A DNA stretch of 49,290 bases from contig NZ_DATIND010000054.1 of the NCBI RefSeq assembly GCF_035474595.1, forward strand, positions 1-49,290, in the 5' to 3' direction. The stretch comes from Longimicrobium sp. (lineage in GTDB: Bacteria > Gemmatimonadota > Gemmatimonadetes > Longimicrobiales > Longimicrobiaceae). Positions 4,863 to 46,362 of the stretch are shown here, one piece after another; positions within the stretch are counted from its first letter, which is position 1; each line of letters starts with the position of its first letter. Position numbers and translations under genes: made by a program. The notes under the pieces are model-generated. The model ran no database searches and was not told the origin of the DNA. It saw nothing but the letters and a program-made list of their open reading frames with translations.

Positions 4863-4913
4863 CGAAAAGATGAAGGGCGAGACGGCAGTTCTGTCTCGCC
4901 CTTCATCTTTTCG
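4863..4913. repeat. Perfect 21-bp inverted repeat
   Basis: The arm 4863-4883 (containing GATGAAGGGCGAGAC) is exactly complementary to 4893-4913 around a 9-nt loop. It lies downstream of the methyltransferase (minus strand) and upstream of signal peptidase. A transcript from either strand would fold into a very stable stem. No T-tract follows, so it may be a mobile-repeat remnant or a processing/terminator stem. Confidence 0.8.
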
Positions 4914-4967
4914 GGTGAGGGTCCACGCCGGGACGCCGCCCCGATTTCGTTGCTCGCGCTGAACCAG

Positions 4968-5003
4968 CGCACTCCCGCACTTCCGCACTCCCGCACTTCC
5001 GCA
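4968..5003 (-). repeat. 8-bp tandem repeat array (AGTGCGGR) abutting a stop codon
   Basis: On the minus strand the methyltransferase TAA is followed at once by alternating AGTGCGGA and AGTGCGGG units, about four copies. Equivalent arrays follow the stop codons of the GNAT gene at 9652 and of the regulator ending at 46312, always in the same orientation relative to the gene. Confidence 0.75.
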
Positions 5004-5729
5004 TTATCGCGGTTCCGCACTCCGCTTCGGCCGCCGCTCGGGGATGGTGACGTGCAGGAGGAGCGAGACGGGGCGGCCGGTCTCGGGATCCAGCGGCTCG
5101 TACGTTTCCACGAGCAGGAGGCCGGCGCGGCGCAGCTCCAGCACCCAGGTGGTGAAGGTGCGGAAGTACCAGGGGATGGGGCGGATGAGCTTCACCCCGG
5201 GCGCGGCCTCCTCCATCATCCGCCAGCCGTCGCGGTAGCCGGAGGCGTCGCCGATCATGGCGGCCGGGTGCGCGGCCTGGATGAGGATGCGGCCGTAGGG
5301 GAAGAGCACCGCCCCCGCCGCGGCCAGGACGGGGGTGATGCGCGCGTCCAGCAGCGAGAAGTTGAAGATGATGGTGCCGTAGGCGCCCCGCAGCTTGCGC
5401 GGGTTCTCGCCCGCCTCGGCGAAGGGGGTATGCCCGTACTCGATCTTGCCGCCCGCGGCCTCGGCCAGCGCGATCATCCGCGCGGAGCCGTCCAGCGCGG
5501 TGACCTCGTGCCGCCGCGACGCCAGCTCGCGCGCCAGCCACCCCTCGCCGCAGCCCAGGTCCAGCACCGGGCCGGTGGGCACCTGGCGCACCAGGTCGAG
5601 GATGGCGCGGTCGGTCAGCGCGCGGCGCGGGTCGGTGCCGCCGCGGACGGCGGCGGCCCACGCATCCGCGGCATCGTCCCACGCCTCCAGCGGCGCGTGC
5701 TCCTCGGCAACGGGGTCGGGCGAGCTCAT
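5004..5729 (-). CDS. Class I SAM-dependent methyltransferase, 241 aa
   Basis: Rossmann-fold methyltransferase. Motif I reads VLDLGCGEGWLARELA (about 54-69), motif II acidic residue is in VTALDGSARM, and the post-motif segment has YGTIIFNFSLLD. The fold and the C-terminal part (PWYFRTFTTWVLELRRAGLLL) resemble UbiE/small-molecule methyltransferases; the substrate cannot be assigned. The ATG at 5729 has a strong AAGGAGG ribosome site. The start codon overlaps the TGA of a short upstream ORF with its own ribosome site (see 5726-5776), suggesting translational coupling. Confidence 0.85.
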   Translation of the reverse strand: MSSPDPVAEEHAPLEAWDDAADAWAAAVRGGTDPRRALTDRAILDLVRQVPTGPVLDLGCGEGWLARELASRRHEVTALDGSARMIALAEAAGGKIEYGHTPFAEAGENPRKLRGAYGTIIFNFSLLDARITPVLAAAGAVLFPYGRILIQAAHPAAMIGDASGYRDGWRMMEEAAPGVKLIRPIPWYFRTFTTWVLELRRAGLLLVETYEPLDPETGRPVSLLLHVTIPERRPKRSAEPR

Positions 5730-5776
5730 GCGGCGGGATCCTCCTTCATCTTCATCTTCATCTTCATCTTCCCCAT
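5726..5776 (-). CDS. Putative 16-aa leader peptide with Met-Lys repeat
   Basis: ATG 5776 is preceded by GGAGG about nine bases upstream and opens a 16-codon frame, MGKMKMKMKMKEDPAA. Its TGA overlaps the methyltransferase ATG (ATGA at 5729-5726). The repeated Met-Lys codons are produced by a hexanucleotide repeat, and the methyltransferase ribosome site lies inside the leader. The arrangement looks like a coupled or attenuating upstream ORF. It could also be chance, since a microsatellite creates the frame. Confidence 0.4.
   Translation of the reverse strand: MGKMKMKMKMKEDPAA
5744..5771 (-). repeat. Hexanucleotide microsatellite (ATGAAG)4
   Basis: Four and a half copies of CTTCAT on the plus strand, just upstream of the methyltransferase ribosome site. 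Changes in copy number would alter the leader peptide by two residues per unit without changing frame. Confidence 0.85.
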
Positions 5777-5807
5777 CGGTCTACCCTCCAATCCCTCGCT
5801 CCGGCCC

Positions 5808-5922
5808 CGAATGAATTCGGGGGCAACAACTGCACAAAGTCCCTGCGGGACTGCGGCCGCGGGCATCGCCGAGGTGCCGAAGCATCGGCAGGGGCCCTGG
5901 CAGGGTTCGCGTGACCTGCCAG
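5808..5922. repeat. Dispersed repeat with AGTCCCTGCGGGACT hairpin, plus a second palindrome
   Basis: 5808-5854 runs from CGAATGAATTCGG through CAACAACTGCAC to a small hairpin AGTCCC-TGC-GGGACT. A near copy lies at 33641-33686. Further on, CTGGCAGG (5897-5904) pairs with CCTGCCAG (5915-5922). Together with the promoter region of the KTSC gene this fills the 5777-6030 gap; no gene is seen. Confidence 0.7.
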
Positions 5923-6030
5923 ATCCGCCGTCTTGCCGTCTCGTCATTAACTACGTTTACTATGGCACGATTAGTGTACACCGTTTACGGGCGCAAAAGC
6001 AAGGGATGATCTGAATGGAGGAGGTGATTC

Positions 6031-6252
6031 GTGGACAGGCAGCGTGTCGATTCCAGCAGCGTCCGCAGCGTGGGCTATGAAGAAAGCAGCCACACGCTCG
6101 AGGTGGAGTTCATCAACGGCGGGGTGTACGACTACCTGGACGTTCCCGCCACCGAGGCCGAGCGCCTGCGCCGGTCCGAATCGCTCGGCCGGTACCTGAA
6201 CAAGCGCATCAAGCCGCGCTACCGCGTGAAGAAGGTGCGTCCGCCGGAGTAG
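6031..6252 (+). CDS. KTSC-domain protein, 73 aa
   Basis: Small protein matching the KTSC domain, named after a C-terminal-type motif found fused to lysyl-tRNA synthetases and as free proteins; the function is not established. Visible family pattern: SSSVRSVGYEESSHTLEVEF, then GGVYDYLDVPATEAERL, SLGRYLNKRI and a basic end YRVKKVRPPE. The GTG start at 6031 follows a strong GGAGGTGATTC ribosome site. It stands alone on the plus strand and ends before a bidirectional hairpin shared with the convergent lipoprotein gene. Confidence 0.85.
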   Translation: MDRQRVDSSSVRSVGYEESSHTLEVEFINGGVYDYLDVPATEAERLRRSESLGRYLNKRIKPRYRVKKVRPPE

Positions 6253-6270
6253 GCGCGGACCGGCTGACAC

Positions 6271-6305
6271 GAACGCCCCGGACGCAGTTCGCGTCCGGGG
6301 CGTTC
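6271..6305. terminator. 15-bp perfect hairpin between convergent genes
   Basis: GAACGCCCCGGACGC (6271-6285) pairs perfectly with 6291-6305 around a 5-nt loop. It sits between the KTSC gene and the convergent lipoprotein gene and could stop transcripts from both sides; no T-tract is present. Confidence 0.65.
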
Positions 6306-6323
6306 GGCCGTGCCGCGGAGAGG

Positions 6324-6965
6324 TCAAAACGGGCAGAGCGCGGCGCTGGAGCTCACCGTCACGTTCTTGGCGGCCGTCGCGGTGACGTTGTTGGCGTCGT
6401 GGACGGTCACGTACAGCGTGTAGCTGGTGGAGCTCCGCGCGTAGTAGCCGTCGAAGCCGTCGCTGTAGCCAGTCCCCCACGTCTGGCTCCACGTGTACGT
6501 GTACGGGGCCGTTCCGCCGGACGGGGTCGCCCAGAAGTAGCACTCCGCGTTCGTGCGCACCGTGCTGCGGCCGCCGATGCTCACGGAGAGCGGTGGCACG
6601 ATCTGGATGGTCGTCGACCCCGGGATGCCGTCGATCACGGCGGTGATGGTCACCGTTCCGCCGGTGGAGCCCGCCGTCACCGTGCCGCCGGAGGTGATGG
6701 TCGCGAGCGAGGTGTTCGAGGACGACCACGACGTGACGCCGCTGTTGGTGAACACGTTGTTCGAGTCGTAGCCGTACGCGGCGCACGTAGCCGACGCGCC
6801 GAAGTCCATCTTCACCGGGCAGCTCACCGCCACGTGCGTGGTCGCGCCGGAGAGCCGCGGCGCGGTGGGACTGAGCCCGCCGTTCCGCGTGCCCGCGCCT
6901 TCGCCGCACGCACCGGCCATGGCGGCCAGCACGATCGCGCCCATCCACCGTCTTCCGTGCCTCAT
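6324..6965 (-). CDS. Secreted lipoprotein with Big2-like Ig domain, 213 aa
   Basis: The N-terminus MRHGRRWMGAIVLAAMAGAC is a signal peptide with a lipobox-like AGAC, so the mature protein would be lipid-anchored at Cys20. Residues ~45-125 have the BIG2-type pattern (WSSSNTSLATITSGGTVTA, GTVTITAVIDG, TTIQIVPPLSVSIGG). The C-terminal part (TAPYTYTWSQTWG ... TSYTLYVTVHD) reads like a second PKD/Ig-type beta-sandwich. Such proteins are cell-surface structural or adhesive modules. ATG 6965 has a good GGAGGACTTC ribosome site; longer upstream starts lack signal-peptide character. Divergent from the permease, with a 238-bp intergenic space. Confidence 0.8.
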   Translation of the reverse strand: MRHGRRWMGAIVLAAMAGACGEGAGTRNGGLSPTAPRLSGATTHVAVSCPVKMDFGASATCAAYGYDSNNVFTNSGVTSWSSSNTSLATITSGGTVTAGSTGGTVTITAVIDGIPGSTTIQIVPPLSVSIGGRSTVRTNAECYFWATPSGGTAPYTYTWSQTWGTGYSDGFDGYYARSSTSYTLYVTVHDANNVTATAAKNVTVSSSAALCPF

Positions 6966-7203
6966 GAAGTCCTCCGGAGTCCAGCGTGTCCGCGCGCCCG
7001 AACACCACGGCGCATGTGGGACTATGAAGATGATGAGCGTTTGATTTGATCGCAAGCACAGTCGTGAAAGGTAAGACTTTCCGCATGGCCGAACCGCATC
7101 GCACGCCGCGGGCGCACGCCGCGCTTGCGGAGTCGATGCGCGGGGACGATCCTTCGCGCGCTCCCGGTCATCCCTCCGCCGCCCCTCGATCTCCCGCCCC
7201 ACG

Positions 7204-8508
7204 ATGATTCCTGAAGAAGCGCCCGCCGCGGACAGCCGCCTGGTTCGCGTGGTGGGGATCTGGGGCCTGGCCGCGAGCATCGTCAACATCACGGTGGGCG
7301 GCGGCATCTTCCGGCTCCCCGCGTTCGTGGCGGGGCAGCTCGGCTCGGCCGCGCCGATCGCCTACCTCGTGTGCGCGGTGGCGATGGGACTGATCGTCCT
7401 CTGCTTCGCCGAGGCGGGAAGCCGCGTGGCCCTCACCGGCGGGCCGTACGCGTACGTGGAAGTCGCGTTCGGATCGCTGGCGGGCTTCCTCTCCGGCGTG
7501 CTGCTGTGGGCCGTCGGCACGCTCGCCCTCGCCGCGGTGGCGACGCTCTTCGCGGACGCGGTCGGCGCGCTGGTGCCGGCGCTGGGCGGACCGGCGGCGC
7601 GCGCGGCGGTGCTCGTGGCCACCTTCGCGCTGCTGTCGGCGGTGAACGTGCGCGGTGTGCGGCAGGGGACGGCGGTGAACGTCGTCTTCACCATCGCCAA
7701 GCTCCTGCCTCTGCTCCTGTTGCTGGTCGCCGGCGCGTTCGCGGTGAAGGCGGGGAACCTGGCGTGGCACGGCGCTCCGTCGGGCGGCCAGGTGGCGCGG
7801 ACGTCGGTGCTGCTGATCTTCGCGTTCGCGGGGATCGAGACGGCACTGGTGCCGAGCGGCGAGGTGCGCGACGTGGCCCGGACCATCCCCCGCGCCATCG
7901 CGCTGGCGATGATCGGGATCACGCTGCTGTACATCGGCCTGCACCTGGTGTCGCAGGGGCTGCTGGGCGACGCGCTGGCCACGTCCAGCACGCCGCTGGC
8001 GGACGCGGCGGCCGTCGCGCTCGGCCCCGCCGGCCGCGCGATGATGCTGGCCGGCGCCGCCGTGTCGATGTTCGGCTACGTGGGTGGGATGACGCTGGCG
8101 GTGCCGCGCGCGCTCTTCGCGCTGGGCCGCGACGGCTTTCTGCCGAGGCAGCTGGCGGCGGTGCACCCGCGCTGGCACACGCCGTGGGTGGCCATCGTGG
8201 TGCAGGGGGTGATCGTGTGCATCCTCGCCGTCACCAGCGGCTTCGAGAAGCTGGCGATCCTGGCGAACCTGTCCACGCTGCTGCTGTACGCGGGGTGCTG
8301 CCTGGCCGCGTGGGAGCTCCGCCGCCGCGACGTGCGCGCGGGCGGCATCCCCTTCCGCGTCCCCGCGGCGGGCGTGGTGCCGTTCCTCGCCCTCGCCGCC
8401 ATCGCCTACATGGTCACGTCCGTGAAGCCGCTCGAGTGGGCCGTCGTGGCCGGCGTCCTCGCCGCCGCCGCGCTCATCTACTTCGCCGCCCGCGCCGCCC
8501 GCCGTTGA
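7204..8508 (+). CDS. APC-superfamily amino acid permease, 434 aa
   Basis: Inner-membrane amino acid/polyamine/organocation transporter with about 12 hydrophobic helices. The first helix shows the family pattern GLAASIVNITVGGGIFRLPAFVAG, and helix 2-3 has FAEAGSRVALTGGPYAYVEVAFG. A GIETALVPSGEV stretch around 220-230 matches the conserved helix 6 region. The substrate is unknown. The start ATG 7204 directly follows a pyrimidine-rich leader without a clear ribosome site. It is monocistronic, divergent from the lipoprotein and convergent with the next gene. Confidence 0.9.
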   Translation: MIPEEAPAADSRLVRVVGIWGLAASIVNITVGGGIFRLPAFVAGQLGSAAPIAYLVCAVAMGLIVLCFAEAGSRVALTGGPYAYVEVAFGSLAGFLSGVLLWAVGTLALAAVATLFADAVGALVPALGGPAARAAVLVATFALLSAVNVRGVRQGTAVNVVFTIAKLLPLLLLLVAGAFAVKAGNLAWHGAPSGGQVARTSVLLIFAFAGIETALVPSGEVRDVARTIPRAIALAMIGITLLYIGLHLVSQGLLGDALATSSTPLADAAAVALGPAGRAMMLAGAAVSMFGYVGGMTLAVPRALFALGRDGFLPRQLAAVHPRWHTPWVAIVVQGVIVCILAVTSGFEKLAILANLSTLLLYAGCCLAAWELRRRDVRAGGIPFRVPAAGVVPFLALAAIAYMVTSVKPLEWAVVAGVLAAAALIYFAARAARR

Positions 8509-8547
8509 TCATCGACGGGACACCACGTCCGTCCCCAGAGAAAGACG

Positions 8548-8688
8548 TCATCCTGAGGCCGACCACGCGGTAAGCTTTGCCTGCGCAGACGGTTGCAGGC
8601 CGAAGGATCCATAACCGGTCCAGCACGTCAGCCGCGGATTCACTCCGAACGAAGCAGAACGCCCCCTCCGATCGCGATCGGAAGGGGC
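8548..8688. repeat. CATCCTGAGGCC...GGCCGAAGGATC palindrome and a terminator-like hairpin
   Basis: CATCCTGAGGCCGA near 8550 faces GGCCGAAGGATCC near 8605 as imperfect inverted ends. Behind it 8661-8674 pairs with 8675-8688 (GCCCCCTCCGATCG against CGATCGGAAGGGGC, one G-T pair). The second hairpin lies between convergent genes and may serve as their terminator. The 8509-8712 gap contains no gene. Confidence 0.6.
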
Positions 8689-8712
8689 GCCGTGTTGGGG
8701 CGATGCGAATCG

Positions 8713-9240
8713 TCAGCCGGCGGCGGCGGCGCCGATGGGGAAGGCCCGCGCGTGCCAGGCATCGCGGAGGCGCGTCTCCCAGCGCCCGGCGCGGATGGCG
8801 CCGACATCGGTGACGGTGTTGTCGAAGACGACGGTGTCGTCGGCGACCTCGCCGGCCTGGGCCAGGCGCCGGAATTCCCCGCGCTCGGCCGACTTCACCT
8901 CGCCCGACGCGTCGCGCCAGTAGACGAGCGACGCGCCGCGGCGGAGGTCGGTGCCCAGCACGCCCTCGGCGTCGGCCAGCGCGTGCTGCAGCGAGTCGAT
9001 GCTGCACCCGGAGACGCCGGTCGCCCGCTCGTCCGCGGCCACCAGGAGGAAGCGTCCGTCGCGGAAGTCGCGCGCGCCCAGCACCGGCGCACCGTGCGCG
9101 GCCCAGCGCTCCAGGAAGCCGTCCACGCGCTGCAGCAGCGCGGCCGCCTCGCCGTCGTTCAGCGGGCGCGGCGCGGCGAACACAAACAGCCGGGCGTCGT
9201 CGGGCATACGGTCGAAGGTCGTCGCGGGCATCGTCGTCAT
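8713..9240 (-). CDS. Conserved hypothetical protein, about 175 aa
   Basis: Resembles a family common in Bacteroidota that databases often label 'ABC transporter ATPase', although no Walker motif is present. Family wording visible: FLERWAAHGAPVLGARDFRDGRFLLVAADE, then SGCSIDSLQHALADAE with an invariant-looking Cys, GEFRRLAQAGEVADDTVVFDN, and a final WHARAF. The function is unknown. The start is uncertain: ATG 9240, ATG 9231 or GTG 9270 are possible and none has a strong ribosome site; the frame is open to 9372 but that part looks non-coding. Confidence 0.75.
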   Translation of the reverse strand: MTTMPATTFDRMPDDARLFVFAAPRPLNDGEAAALLQRVDGFLERWAAHGAPVLGARDFRDGRFLLVAADERATGVSGCSIDSLQHALADAEGVLGTDLRRGASLVYWRDASGEVKSAERGEFRRLAQAGEVADDTVVFDNTVTDVGAIRAGRWETRLRDAWHARAFPIGAAAAG

Positions 9241-9426
9241 CGCTGGTGGTTCGTCATCCCCATCGCTCACCCGCTGATTACCCCCGCACCTCCCGCCGGT
9301 TCGCGGACGCCCGATTCGGGACACCGGCGCGACCGATCTGTGAGTGATGCGGAGATGGGCGGTGCGCGACAAGGGAATGGTGTTGCGGGCGGCGGAGATG
9401 GGTGCGCGAAAAATGCGAGTGAGCTC

Positions 9427-9571
9427 GCGGCTACAACATCACGCAGCCCGCCTTCGCGACGCCTTCGCGGACTTCATCGGCGCGCGTTCCGGCGCACGTG
9501 CGGTTCCTCGCCACGAACTCCGCGCAGGCGGAGTGTGCGCCGTTGTAGCCGCGGCTTCAGCCGCATTTTCG
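9427..9571. repeat. Composite dispersed repeat (CGGCTACAAC ... GTTGTAGCCG)
   Basis: CGCGGCTACAAC (9428-9439) and GTTGTAGCCGCG (9542-9553) face each other. Between them lies a segment, CGCCTTCGCGGACTTCAT, whose reverse complement recurs at 11283-11330. CGGCTTCAGCCGC closes the element. It occupies most of the 9241-9651 gap, in which I see no gene. Confidence 0.7.
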
Positions 9572-9611
9572 CCGCCACCACCACCATCGCCATCGGCCAT
9601 CGTACACACCT

Positions 9612-9651
9612 TTCCGCACTTCCGCACTTCCGCACTCACGCACTTCCGCAC
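9612..9651 (-). repeat. 8-bp tandem repeat array (GTGCGGAA) abutting a stop codon
   Basis: Read on the minus strand, the TAG of the GNAT gene is followed at once by GTGCGGAA, GTGCGTGA and three further GTGCGGAA units. Same family and same orientation as 4968-5003. Confidence 0.75.
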
Positions 9652-10140
9652 CTATCCCTCTGCGACCTCCCGAAGCTGCTCCGCCGTCAGCCGATACGTG
9701 TACCACTCCGTCATCCGCCGGGCGCCCAGCTTGTCGTAGAAGTCGATCGCGAGCTGGTTCCAGTCGAGCACCACCCACTCCATCCGCCCGCACCCGCGCC
9801 GCACCGCCTCGCCGGCGAGGTAGCGGAACATCGTGCGGCCGATGCCGTGCCGCCGCGCGTCGGGGAGCACGAAAATGTCCTCCAGGTACAGCGTTGGCAG
9901 CGCCAGGAACGACGAGTACGTCTCGCAGGTGATGGCGTACGCCACGGCGCGCCCGTCCACCTCGGCGATGTACACCTGGATGCGGTGCGGATCGGGGCCG
10001 AACGCGTCGTTCAGCAGGCGCCCGCGCGCGTCGGGCGTGGGGCGGTCCAGCTTCTCGTAGTCGGCCAGCGCGTCGACCAGCGCCAGCCAGGTGTCGCCGT
10101 CCGCGGGCGTGGCGGGGCGGACGGTCACGGCGTCGGGCAT
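9652..10140 (-). CDS. GNAT acetyltransferase, diamine/spermidine acetyltransferase-like, 162 aa
   Basis: Acetyl-CoA dependent N-acetyltransferase. The layout fits the SAT-like group: VTVRPATPADGDTWLALV at the N-terminus, YSSFLALPTLYLEDIFVLPDARRHGIG with the acetyl-CoA pyrophosphate loop RRHGIG, then MEWVVLDWNQLAIDFYDKLGA with the catalytic-type Tyr. Diamine acetyltransferases share the LYLEDLFV and VLDWN wording, but substrates of bacterial members vary. The start ATG 10140 is chosen for family length; upstream frame to 10281 looks non-coding. It is divergent from the oxidoreductase gene at 10353 across 212 bp. Confidence 0.88.
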   Translation of the reverse strand: MPDAVTVRPATPADGDTWLALVDALADYEKLDRPTPDARGRLLNDAFGPDPHRIQVYIAEVDGRAVAYAITCETYSSFLALPTLYLEDIFVLPDARRHGIGRTMFRYLAGEAVRRGCGRMEWVVLDWNQLAIDFYDKLGARRMTEWYTYRLTAEQLREVAEG

Positions 10141-10352
10141 GGGATTCCGTCGTTCGGTGGATGAAGATCGGTCGCGCAAGGTAGGCGGGCGATGCGCGGC
10201 CCGCGAGTCCCGCGCGTCCGGCATCTCCCCACGAACGGGTCGGGAGAAGGGGCGATGGAGATGCGGGGATCTTCTGATCATCCACGCTCGTCATCGACTT
10301 GAGATTCGCGCCGGGATCGAGATCACCCAACCGACGACGACGGGAGACGGAG

Positions 10353-18096: not shown

Positions 18097-18178
18097 GATC
18101 TCACGCGGAGACGCGGAGACGCAGAGAACTCATCGCCCGGAGGGAGCTCTCCGCGCCTTCGCGTCTCCGCGTGAGATC
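18097..18178. repeat. Long palindrome with GCGGAGACGC units
   Basis: The 19-bp arm GATCTCACGCGGAGACGCG (18097-18115) is exactly repeated in inverted form at 18160-18178. A second copy of the family lies at 20425-20492. Both sit directly behind stop codons of minus-strand genes (here dacB, 24 bp away). Confidence 0.8.
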
Positions 18179-20424: not shown

Positions 20425-20492
20425 CTCACGCGGAGACGCGGAGACGCAGAGAACTCACCGCTCGAACGGAGTTCTCTGCGTCTCCGCGTGAG
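20425..20492. repeat. Second copy of the GCGGAGACGC palindrome family
   Basis: CTCACGCGGAGACGC (20425 onward), with an extra 8-9 bp unit, pairs with GAGTTCTCTGCG...GTGAG at 20469-20492. It ends three bases before the stop of the VOC gene and may act as its transcription terminator. Confidence 0.8.
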
Positions 20493-26293: not shown

Positions 26294-28603
<2,310 letters not shown>

Positions 28604-45433: not shown

Positions 45434-46312
45434 ATGCAGCCCGTTCTACGCCCCCTCATCGTCCTCCACTCCGACGCGGTGTTCAAGGAACGCCTGCGCC
45501 GGATCGGGAGCCAGCGCTTCAAGAGCCAGTTCGTGAACGACTGGGACGGACTGCGCACGGCGCTAAAGGAGGCCCCGCCCGCCGCGCTGGTGGTGGTGGA
45601 CCCGTACACCCACAGCTACGGCGCCGAGGCCGAGCTCGCGCCCGACCTGCGCTCGCTGCTGTGGGAGTACCCCACGGCCACCGTGATCGCCGCGCTGGAG
45701 GTGAAGCGCCAGCGCGTGCGCGACCTGCGCACGCTGGGCGAGTGGGGGGTGAAGGAGGTGATCGCGCTGGATGAGGAAGACACCCTCGAGGCGATCAGCC
45801 GCCGCCTTCGCTCGGCGCAGGGGCGGCCGCTGCAGAGCCTGCTGGAGCGCTCGCTGCCGCCCACGCTGAGCGGGCGCGCGCGGACGCTGCTGATGGCCGC
45901 CGCCGAGGTGGTGGCCGAGGGCGGCCACGGGCGCGACCTGGCCGCCAGCCTGCGCCTTTCCGAGCGCACGCTGCTGCGCTGGGCCGAGCAGGCGGACCTG
46001 CCGCCGCCACGCCGCGTGCTGGCCTGGATGCGCGTGCTCCTTGCCTGCGAGCTGCTGGACGACCCCGGCCAGACGGTGCTCTCCGTGGCCTACACCTGCG
46101 GCTACGCCAGCGACAGCTCGCTGCGCCGCGCGGTGCAGGAGTTCACGGGCGTGCTGCTGACCGAGCTGCGCCAGGAGGGTGCCTTCGCCACGGCGAGCGA
46201 GAAGTTCCTGGCCGAGCTGGAGGACACGCGCGAGAGCGGCCGTGCGCGCCGCAAGGCCGAGCGCGCGGAAGCGCGGGCGGCCAAGACCGCGGGTGCCGGC
46301 GCGGCGAACTGA
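45434..46312 (+). CDS. Receiver-like/AraC-type regulator B, 292 aa
   Basis: Paralogue of the regulator at 30548 with the same architecture: a pseudo-receiver (PLIVLHSDAVF, ALVVVDPYTH, ATVIAALEV, EWGVKEVIALD) without the acidic pair at its start, and an AraC-type DNA-binding half (GRDLAASLRLSERTLLRWA; SVAYTCGYASDSSLRRAVQEF). The central LRSAQGRPLQ and SGRARTLLM stretches are identical in both proteins. The tail is Lys/Arg/Ala-rich. It is divergent from the aminotransferase that heads the cluster, so it is the more likely direct regulator of that operon. ATG 45434 has CAGGA upstream. An 8-bp repeat array follows the stop. Confidence 0.87.
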   Translation: MQPVLRPLIVLHSDAVFKERLRRIGSQRFKSQFVNDWDGLRTALKEAPPAALVVVDPYTHSYGAEAELAPDLRSLLWEYPTATVIAALEVKRQRVRDLRTLGEWGVKEVIALDEEDTLEAISRRLRSAQGRPLQSLLERSLPPTLSGRARTLLMAAAEVVAEGGHGRDLAASLRLSERTLLRWAEQADLPPPRRVLAWMRVLLACELLDDPGQTVLSVAYTCGYASDSSLRRAVQEFTGVLLTELRQEGAFATASEKFLAELEDTRESGRARRKAERAEARAAKTAGAGAAN

Positions 46313-46321
46313 TCGACCGCA

Positions 46322-46362
46322 GTGCGGGAGTATGAAAGTACGAGAGTACGGAACTGCTCCCG
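46322..46362 (+). repeat. Degenerate 8-bp repeat array behind regulator B
   Basis: GTGCGGGA, GTATGAAA, GTACGAGA, GTACGGAA: the array family of 4968 and 9612, again right behind a stop and in gene orientation, here partly decayed. Confidence 0.6.

Follow-up and report, generated by a model that had tools for sequence, protein, structure and literature searches.

Why should short tandem repeats start right where a gene ends and point away from it? The question is raised by a contig of Longimicrobium sp. (NZ_DATIND010000054.1; 49,290 nucleotides), analyzed here over its whole length and called the window, in which arrays of the 8-bp unit AGTGCGGR follow stop codons. The window is the entire contig C54; the draft genome to which it belongs, G000, amounts to 6.57 Mb. 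An earlier note, made from the letters of the window alone, had placed such arrays directly at the stops of a methyltransferase gene and a GNAT gene and a third behind a regulator gene, all in the same orientation relative to the gene, and all three were present, the last of them 8 nt past the stop. The position rule is real and is common to several species of the genus. To account for it, we favor repeat DNA that has a fixed outer end and a biased insertion at gene edges, later slipping and exchanging units, over a role at transcription boundaries, which ranks second; we hold this preference tentatively, at somewhat under even chances.

The sample of G000, including the window, comprised 1,088,498 bases with 928 complete stop codons and 131 array blocks (L numbers below denote sampled stretches, and G001-G009 the genomes of the same genus that were compared with G000). 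Many of the G000 stretches were picked for the arrays listed in them, which raised array density and left the position of an array relative to its gene unaffected. Genes were predicted with a purpose-written codon-usage caller rather than a published tool. Because units without AGT were oriented by G over C, the polarity of those units is not independent evidence. Position and polarity were observed directly: 56 of the 131 blocks started between -5 and +10 nt from a same-strand stop codon, compared with 2 in the opposite orientation, whereas 1000 trials with random positions and strands in the non-coding DNA averaged 2.98, with 9 as the highest count. The scan of distance and strand relative to stop codons that the earlier note had called for, run here on 1.09 Mb of G000, thus found a placement that is not random, and the common orientation that it had described held beyond the window. 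In the first sample of G000, 21 of 33 arrays started in the interval from -2 to +10 nt around a stop on their own strand. In the 30 nt that follow each of 576 stops, the hexamer AGTGCG had 127 sense and 3 antisense occurrences. Throughout the 6.57 Mb, a three-unit pattern occurred 404 times (212 forward, 192 reverse), and its reversed control not once. Chance placement was ruled out by the reversed control, the strand bias of the hexamer, and the random placements. Four of 106 G000 blocks lay inside called genes.

The same rule was observed in relatives. Blocks in the same interval, -5 to +10 nt around a stop on their own strand, made up 12 of 33 in G008, 4 of 8 in G001, and 6 of 24 in G007 (22 of 65 together), with none in the opposite orientation in any of the three and null means of 0.99, 0.18, and 0.58, respectively. 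The corresponding counts were 1 of 4 in G006 and 0 of 3 in G002, and the sample of G009 was without any block.

At start codons the arrangement was reversed, as arrays next to starts were antisense in 12 cases and in the opposite orientation in 1 (G000, limit 20 nt). This excess was modest: the first sample had 11, whereas 500 random placements averaged 4.7 and reached 11 at most. Since the start-side arrays mirror those at stops, it is a fixed end of the array that faces coding sequence: the AGT end was the nearer to a coding sequence in 162 of 192 arrays flanked by coding sequence on both sides (taken from 203 blocks, 11 of which lacked one coding side and were dropped). Stop-side arrays lay at a median of 6 nt from the gene, and start-side arrays at medians of 47 and 108 nt, depending on the gap type, with some leaving 0-3 nt ahead of the start codon. 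The arrays at L047 14161-14271 and L050 597-641 end 0 nt before a putative start codon, with no space for a ribosome-binding site. Start-side units seemed mostly AGTGCGTG, AGTGCGAG, or AGTACGRR, and stop-side units mostly AGTGCGGR, an uncounted impression from the G000 sample.

In the window, the arrays and their adjoining features are as follows:
4967..5005, minus strand: AGTGCGGR array of about 4.5 units, overlapping the TAA stop of the methyltransferase gene
5004..5729, minus strand: methyltransferase gene (Pfam Methyltransf_25), its TAA stop at 5004-5006 abutting the array
4863..4913, minus strand: long hairpin (GAAAAGATGAAGGGCGAGAC and its complement), read by eye, about 55 nt past the end of the methyltransferase array
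9612..9652, minus strand: five AGTGCGGR-type units in an array that extends into the TAG stop of the GNAT gene
9652..10281, minus strand: GNAT acetyltransferase gene (Pfam Acetyltransf_1), its TAG stop at 9652-9654 abutting the array
9306..9651, minus strand: about 346 bp between the GNAT stop and a conserved block, consisting of the array and other repeat DNA (alignment with G008)
46321..46352, plus strand: mixed array AGTGCGGG AGTATGAA AGTACGAG AGTACGGA, starting 8 nt past the stop
45434..46312, plus strand: AraC-type regulator gene (Pfam HTH_18), with its stop ahead of the third array

The hairpin at 4863..4913 is likely the terminator of the methyltransferase transcript, judging from its sequence. 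When the two AGTGCGGR arrays of the window were folded alone, they showed no structure above that of shuffled sequences. Past the GNAT array, at about 9400-9580, lies repeat DNA (GCGGCTACAAC...) related to the REP-type repeats that flank RAYT genes.

Two origins of the rule were considered at the stop codon itself. That the arrays generally make the stop codons was rejected, because AGTGCGGR is stop-free in all frames, arrays were found behind unchanged stops where the protein ends were identical, and all three stop codons were used. TGA was rarer among array genes of G000 (32 of 56 vs. 641 of 872; p 0.013), with no such difference in three relatives. The stop trinucleotide as a plain DNA target was not supported either, as no excess of stop trinucleotides was found near arrays away from gene ends, the expectation being a hand estimate.

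Nor does the rule follow from what the units are made of. The arrays hold 2-19 copies of a 7- or 8-bp unit, and copy number peaked at four (two copies in 24 arrays, three in 23, four in 30, and five in 7). The 7-bp units found were AGTGCTG, AGTGCCC, AGTGCCT, AGTCCTA, AGTGCGA, ACAGGGG, and AATGGGG, and the 8-bp units AGTGCGGR, AGTGCGAA, AGTGCGTG, AGTACGRR, and AACGGGTG. Units of unlike composition faced the same way, and AGTGCCC has more C than G. Among the common AGT units, GGG tracts were present only in AGTGCGGG, every 8 nt, whereas AGTGCGAA, AGTGCGTG, AGTGCTG, AGTGCCC, and AGTCCTA have no GGG in the obeying orientation and still followed the rule. Because unit composition varies so widely under one rule, neither composition nor G-quadruplexes set it, and a role as a Rho site or RNA motif was rejected as a general one for the same difference in composition. 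An unrelated 8-bp family, ACGCGGAG, had its arrays mostly 19 to more than 100 nt from stops. Relaxed counts of three units in ten genomes of the genus ranged from 867 (G000) down to 0 (G003 and G006). G000, G001, G002, G007, and G008 count as array-rich, and G003 and G006 as free of arrays by the pattern AGTRCGRR. Nine of 41 genomes, all within the family, contained the strict pattern.

Some elements are two-armed, composed of an array, a short palindromic core of about 20 bp, and an inverted array (e.g., L041 1605-1684 and L054 18188-18267). The former folds at -62 kcal/mol, compared with -33 for shuffled sequences (z -7.6). Terminal inverted repeats were seen in 13 two-armed cases, and most arrays were single. 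Facing arrays at both edges of a gap were directly observed in excess, in 16 of 612 gaps of G000 (4.1 expected) and 4 of 348 of G008 (0.6 expected), while genes with arrays on both flanks numbered 3 against 2.9 expected. Because pairing is enriched across the gap and not around the gene, the gap is the unit. An integron type of gene cassette, in which the array would move with the gene, was therefore rejected, given this count of same-gene flanks and the orthologues without an array. At the inner edge of the array, YYGG was found in 13 of 46 cases (2.2 expected).

Comparison of orthologous sites showed arrays to be patchy. Of 178 reciprocal orthologue pairs at >=45% identity (258 pairs in all), 155 had no array, 20 had one in one species, and 3 in both. 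With a looser array test, 65 G000-G008 pairs comprised 5 with arrays in both, 8 and 3 in one only, and 49 in none (Fisher p 0.006); one of the five shared cases belongs to the ACGCGGAG family. Unlike units at an orthologous site were observed directly. AGTGCGGR in one species corresponded to AGTGCGAA and AGTGCTG in the other on both sides of a convergent gap (L049/L289), ACAGGGG to AGTGCCC (L041/L227), and AGTACGRR to AGTGCGAG (L261/L291). A site empty in a relative was also seen directly, most clearly in the GNAT gap, which measures 411 nt in G000 and 83 nt in G008: base 7 onward of the shorter gap aligns with the final 65 nt of the longer one (score 64, compared with at most 27 in 100 shuffles). 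Directly behind the stop, there are thus 346 nt in G000 vs. 6 nt in G008, and the array is absent from the latter. Two pairs, L031/L289 and L052/L231, were identical between the species in final residues and stop codon and had an array in just one of them. Array sites did not show up as breaks in gene order, the next gene being conserved in 6 of 23 array pairs and 68 of all 258 pairs. In the syntenic gap of L265 (G000) and L222 (G008), an arm, an interior, and an inverted arm with AGTCCTA units have kept their place and differ in the interior; in the same pair, a ACGCGGAG copy is conserved at the orthologous stop in G008.

The space behind stops is not generally open to repeats. In 315 gaps, other dispersed repeats were scarcest there, at 0.048 of positions 0-10 nt behind the stop compared with 0.25 at 100 nt (repeats were masked as 14-mers seen >=6 times, a crude mask that also marks 5.5% of coding sequence), whereas arrays were commonest, covering 0.115-0.135 of positions at 0-30 nt. 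Since other repeats avoid the spot, a general free slot is not the answer. Genes without arrays (575) had a hairpin peak at +20 nt, with a mean of -15.5 kcal/mol per 40 nt, and in the 63 array genes this peak was missing, whether the stop or the end of the array served as origin. In tandem gaps, a hairpin of <=-20 kcal/mol within 80 nt was found for 6 of 35 array genes (from the array end) vs. 163 of 340 others (Fisher p 0.0005), and in convergent gaps after 9 of 17 arrays vs. 63 of 129 others. Either the arrays replace the terminator in tandem gaps, or they enter junctions within operons where no terminator ever existed. Entry of the latter kind fits the GNAT gap and the pair L233/L243, which is gap-free. 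Insertion between the stop and an existing terminator is supported in L261/L291 but, as a general rule, not by the mean hairpin profile.

Under the reading that we favor, dispersed elements with a fixed outer end, of 2-19 unit copies, would insert into intergenic gaps where a coding sequence borders them, in most cases right behind the stop codon and with the outer (AGT...) end toward that sequence. Some would have a two-armed foldback shape, and most would keep, or ever have had, just the gene-side arm. The array would then gain and lose copies, presumably by slippage, and its unit would in time give way to those that the genome now has in abundance. The bias toward edges would be due to the insertion process itself and not to later selection, and some enzyme would be responsible for the insertion. 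Several results weigh against this account. No transposase or other enzyme could be linked to the arrays in a search limited to PF01797. RAYT/Y1 genes of that family were present in 9 of 10 genomes of the genus, and array number did not follow RAYT number; the RAYT (Y1_Tnp) genes in L277, L278, and L279 (3 of 6 G000 matches) are flanked by other REP-type repeats. For these reasons, the identity of the arrays as RAYT-mobilized REP/BIME elements was not supported. No target-site duplication was seen by eye in the 13 two-armed elements. Remnants of an inverted arm were no commoner near single arrays (19 of 46) than those of a reversed control motif (20 of 46), so that a derivation of most arrays from two-armed elements by loss of one arm is not supported. 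The GNAT gap is the sole clean empty site, and the hairpin shortage at array genes in tandem gaps is not predicted by a purely neutral element.

That shortage, with the missing peak at +20 nt, speaks instead for functional devices at 3' ends, which would end, pause, or protect the transcript, or insulate the gene from neighboring transcription, and which selection would keep at gene edges. We regard this as possible but rather unlikely. The excess of orthologous sites that carry arrays in both species despite unlike units (with the ACGCGGAG case among the five) also agrees with it, as does the finding, in a part of Rehm et al. (2015; PMC4692102), that transcripts start or end at repeats forming G-quadruplexes (G4) more often than at controls. 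However, the rule is mirrored at start codons, with some arrays 0-3 nt before the start, units of opposite base composition obey it, convergent gaps retain the usual hairpin past the array, the two window arrays are unstructured relative to shuffles, and sites are patchy among the 178 orthologue pairs. The role in the 3' untranslated region suggested by the earlier note is not supported in that form, given the mirrored starts, the unlike units, and the unstructured window arrays, although the tandem-gap hairpins lean toward some such role. Its other suggestion, targeted repeat insertion, gains partial support from the array-less GNAT gap without some 340 bp, the identical protein ends with and without an array, and the avoidance of the spot by other repeats.

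A selective sieve alone, with insertion anywhere and survivors in the short free stretch between the stop and the control region of the next gene, appears improbable to us. It would suit the GNAT gap, which aligns with its relative nearly throughout except for about 6 nt behind the stop, and the greater distance of start-side than of stop-side arrays, but the stretch right behind the stop is where other dispersed repeats are scarcest, their peak being near 100 nt; arrays of ACGCGGAG, likewise an 8-bp unit, lie mostly farther out; and the orientation bias of 56 vs. 2 requires an extra assumption. We give a still smaller chance to a dedicated machine that recognizes the ends of coding sequences (e.g., through the terminating ribosome or its mRNA) and writes repeats from a lineage-specific template, unlike units at one stop then being successive templates. 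In another reading, repeat birth is coupled to transcription and translation: R-loops would form from the nascent RNA released in the wake of the terminating ribosome, and slippage there would give rise to G-rich tandem repeats. This would explain the sharp onset at the stop codon and the sense orientation. It is very improbable, since start-side arrays run the other way relative to transcription, arrays of AGTGCCC and of AGTCCTA are not rich in G when read in the obeying orientation, and neither two-armed elements nor the 346-bp composite insertion resemble slippage products. We find it hardest to credit, for the arrays here, the proposal made for the repeats of Xanthomonas and Nostoc, that four G-tracts per array form a quadruplex acting at gene ends; the peak at four copies and the GGG of AGTGCGGG every 8 nt are in its favor, but the five units without GGG follow the same rule. 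The start of short repeats right at a gene's final base, pointing away from the gene, is due to something other than base composition. Should insertion be the cause, no mechanism is known that would locate the ends of genes and leave the genes undamaged; should it be selection, a common signal at gene ends has been overlooked. Because species rich in arrays and free of them exist within one genus, the two can be tested.

Several known systems resemble these arrays. REP/BIME elements, with their RAYT transposase, are palindromic, two-armed intergenic repeats near gene ends, while the arms here are tandem arrays. Foldback transposons have terminal inverted repeats built from short tandem repeats, and MIRUs are located at stop codons in gene orientation; the units here differ from foldback transposons, MITEs, and MIRUs in being of only 7-8 bp, and neither a transposase (in the search limited to PF01797) nor a target duplication (by eye, in the 13 elements) was found for them. 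The STRR repeats of cyanobacteria are degenerate heptamer tandem repeats between genes, a likeness by description only.

The closest layout is that of the heptamer repeats GGGAATC of Xanthomonas and GGGGA(C/T)T of Nostoc, which, in the portion of Rehm et al. (2015; PMC4692102) used here, are described as dispersed in gaps with a mode of four copies, preferentially <=50 bp behind a stop on the sense strand or before a start on the antisense strand, some of them overlapping the stop. Convergent pairs numbered 70 in Xcc and 75 in Xac, 83% of the Xcc repeats were also in Xac, and, according to the same portion, the authors could not identify a role in gene regulation (PMC4692102). The arrays here share the short period (7 and 8), the mode of four, the position between genes, and the sense orientation behind stops and antisense before starts. 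They differ from that partial account in lying tight to the stop (median 6 nt), in comprising several 7- and 8-bp families in one genome, many of them unable to form G3 quadruplexes, and in being patchy between related species, although the species compared may be more distant than Xcc and Xac. The layout is therefore already known from what that source describes (PMC4692102), and what is new is its presence in a further bacterial group and its several 7-/8-bp families; the quadruplex idea offered for the first two groups cannot explain the units here. Arrays of 8 bp under this rule were not found reported in the open PubMed Central literature. The heptamer arrays TAACTGA of Beggiatoaceae are likewise oriented, the largest class ending 1 nt from the start codon, but, from part of that article, they differ in being mainly at starts, read as a translational signal, A+T-rich, and of one main unit (PMC4679880). 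Like these, the tandem repeats of Borgs, as far as described in part of PMC9879509, are a looser parallel.

Elsewhere in the window, three-copy arrays of ACGCGGAG, the second 8-bp family that lies mostly off gene edges, are at 18103-18127 and 20428-20452. The product of 26294-28603, which we take to be a ClpA-like protein, had nearly all proteobacterial sequences among its best 80 records, at 54-59% identity. The gene was possibly acquired by horizontal transfer, in a set of records from which those near the window's genome may be left out.

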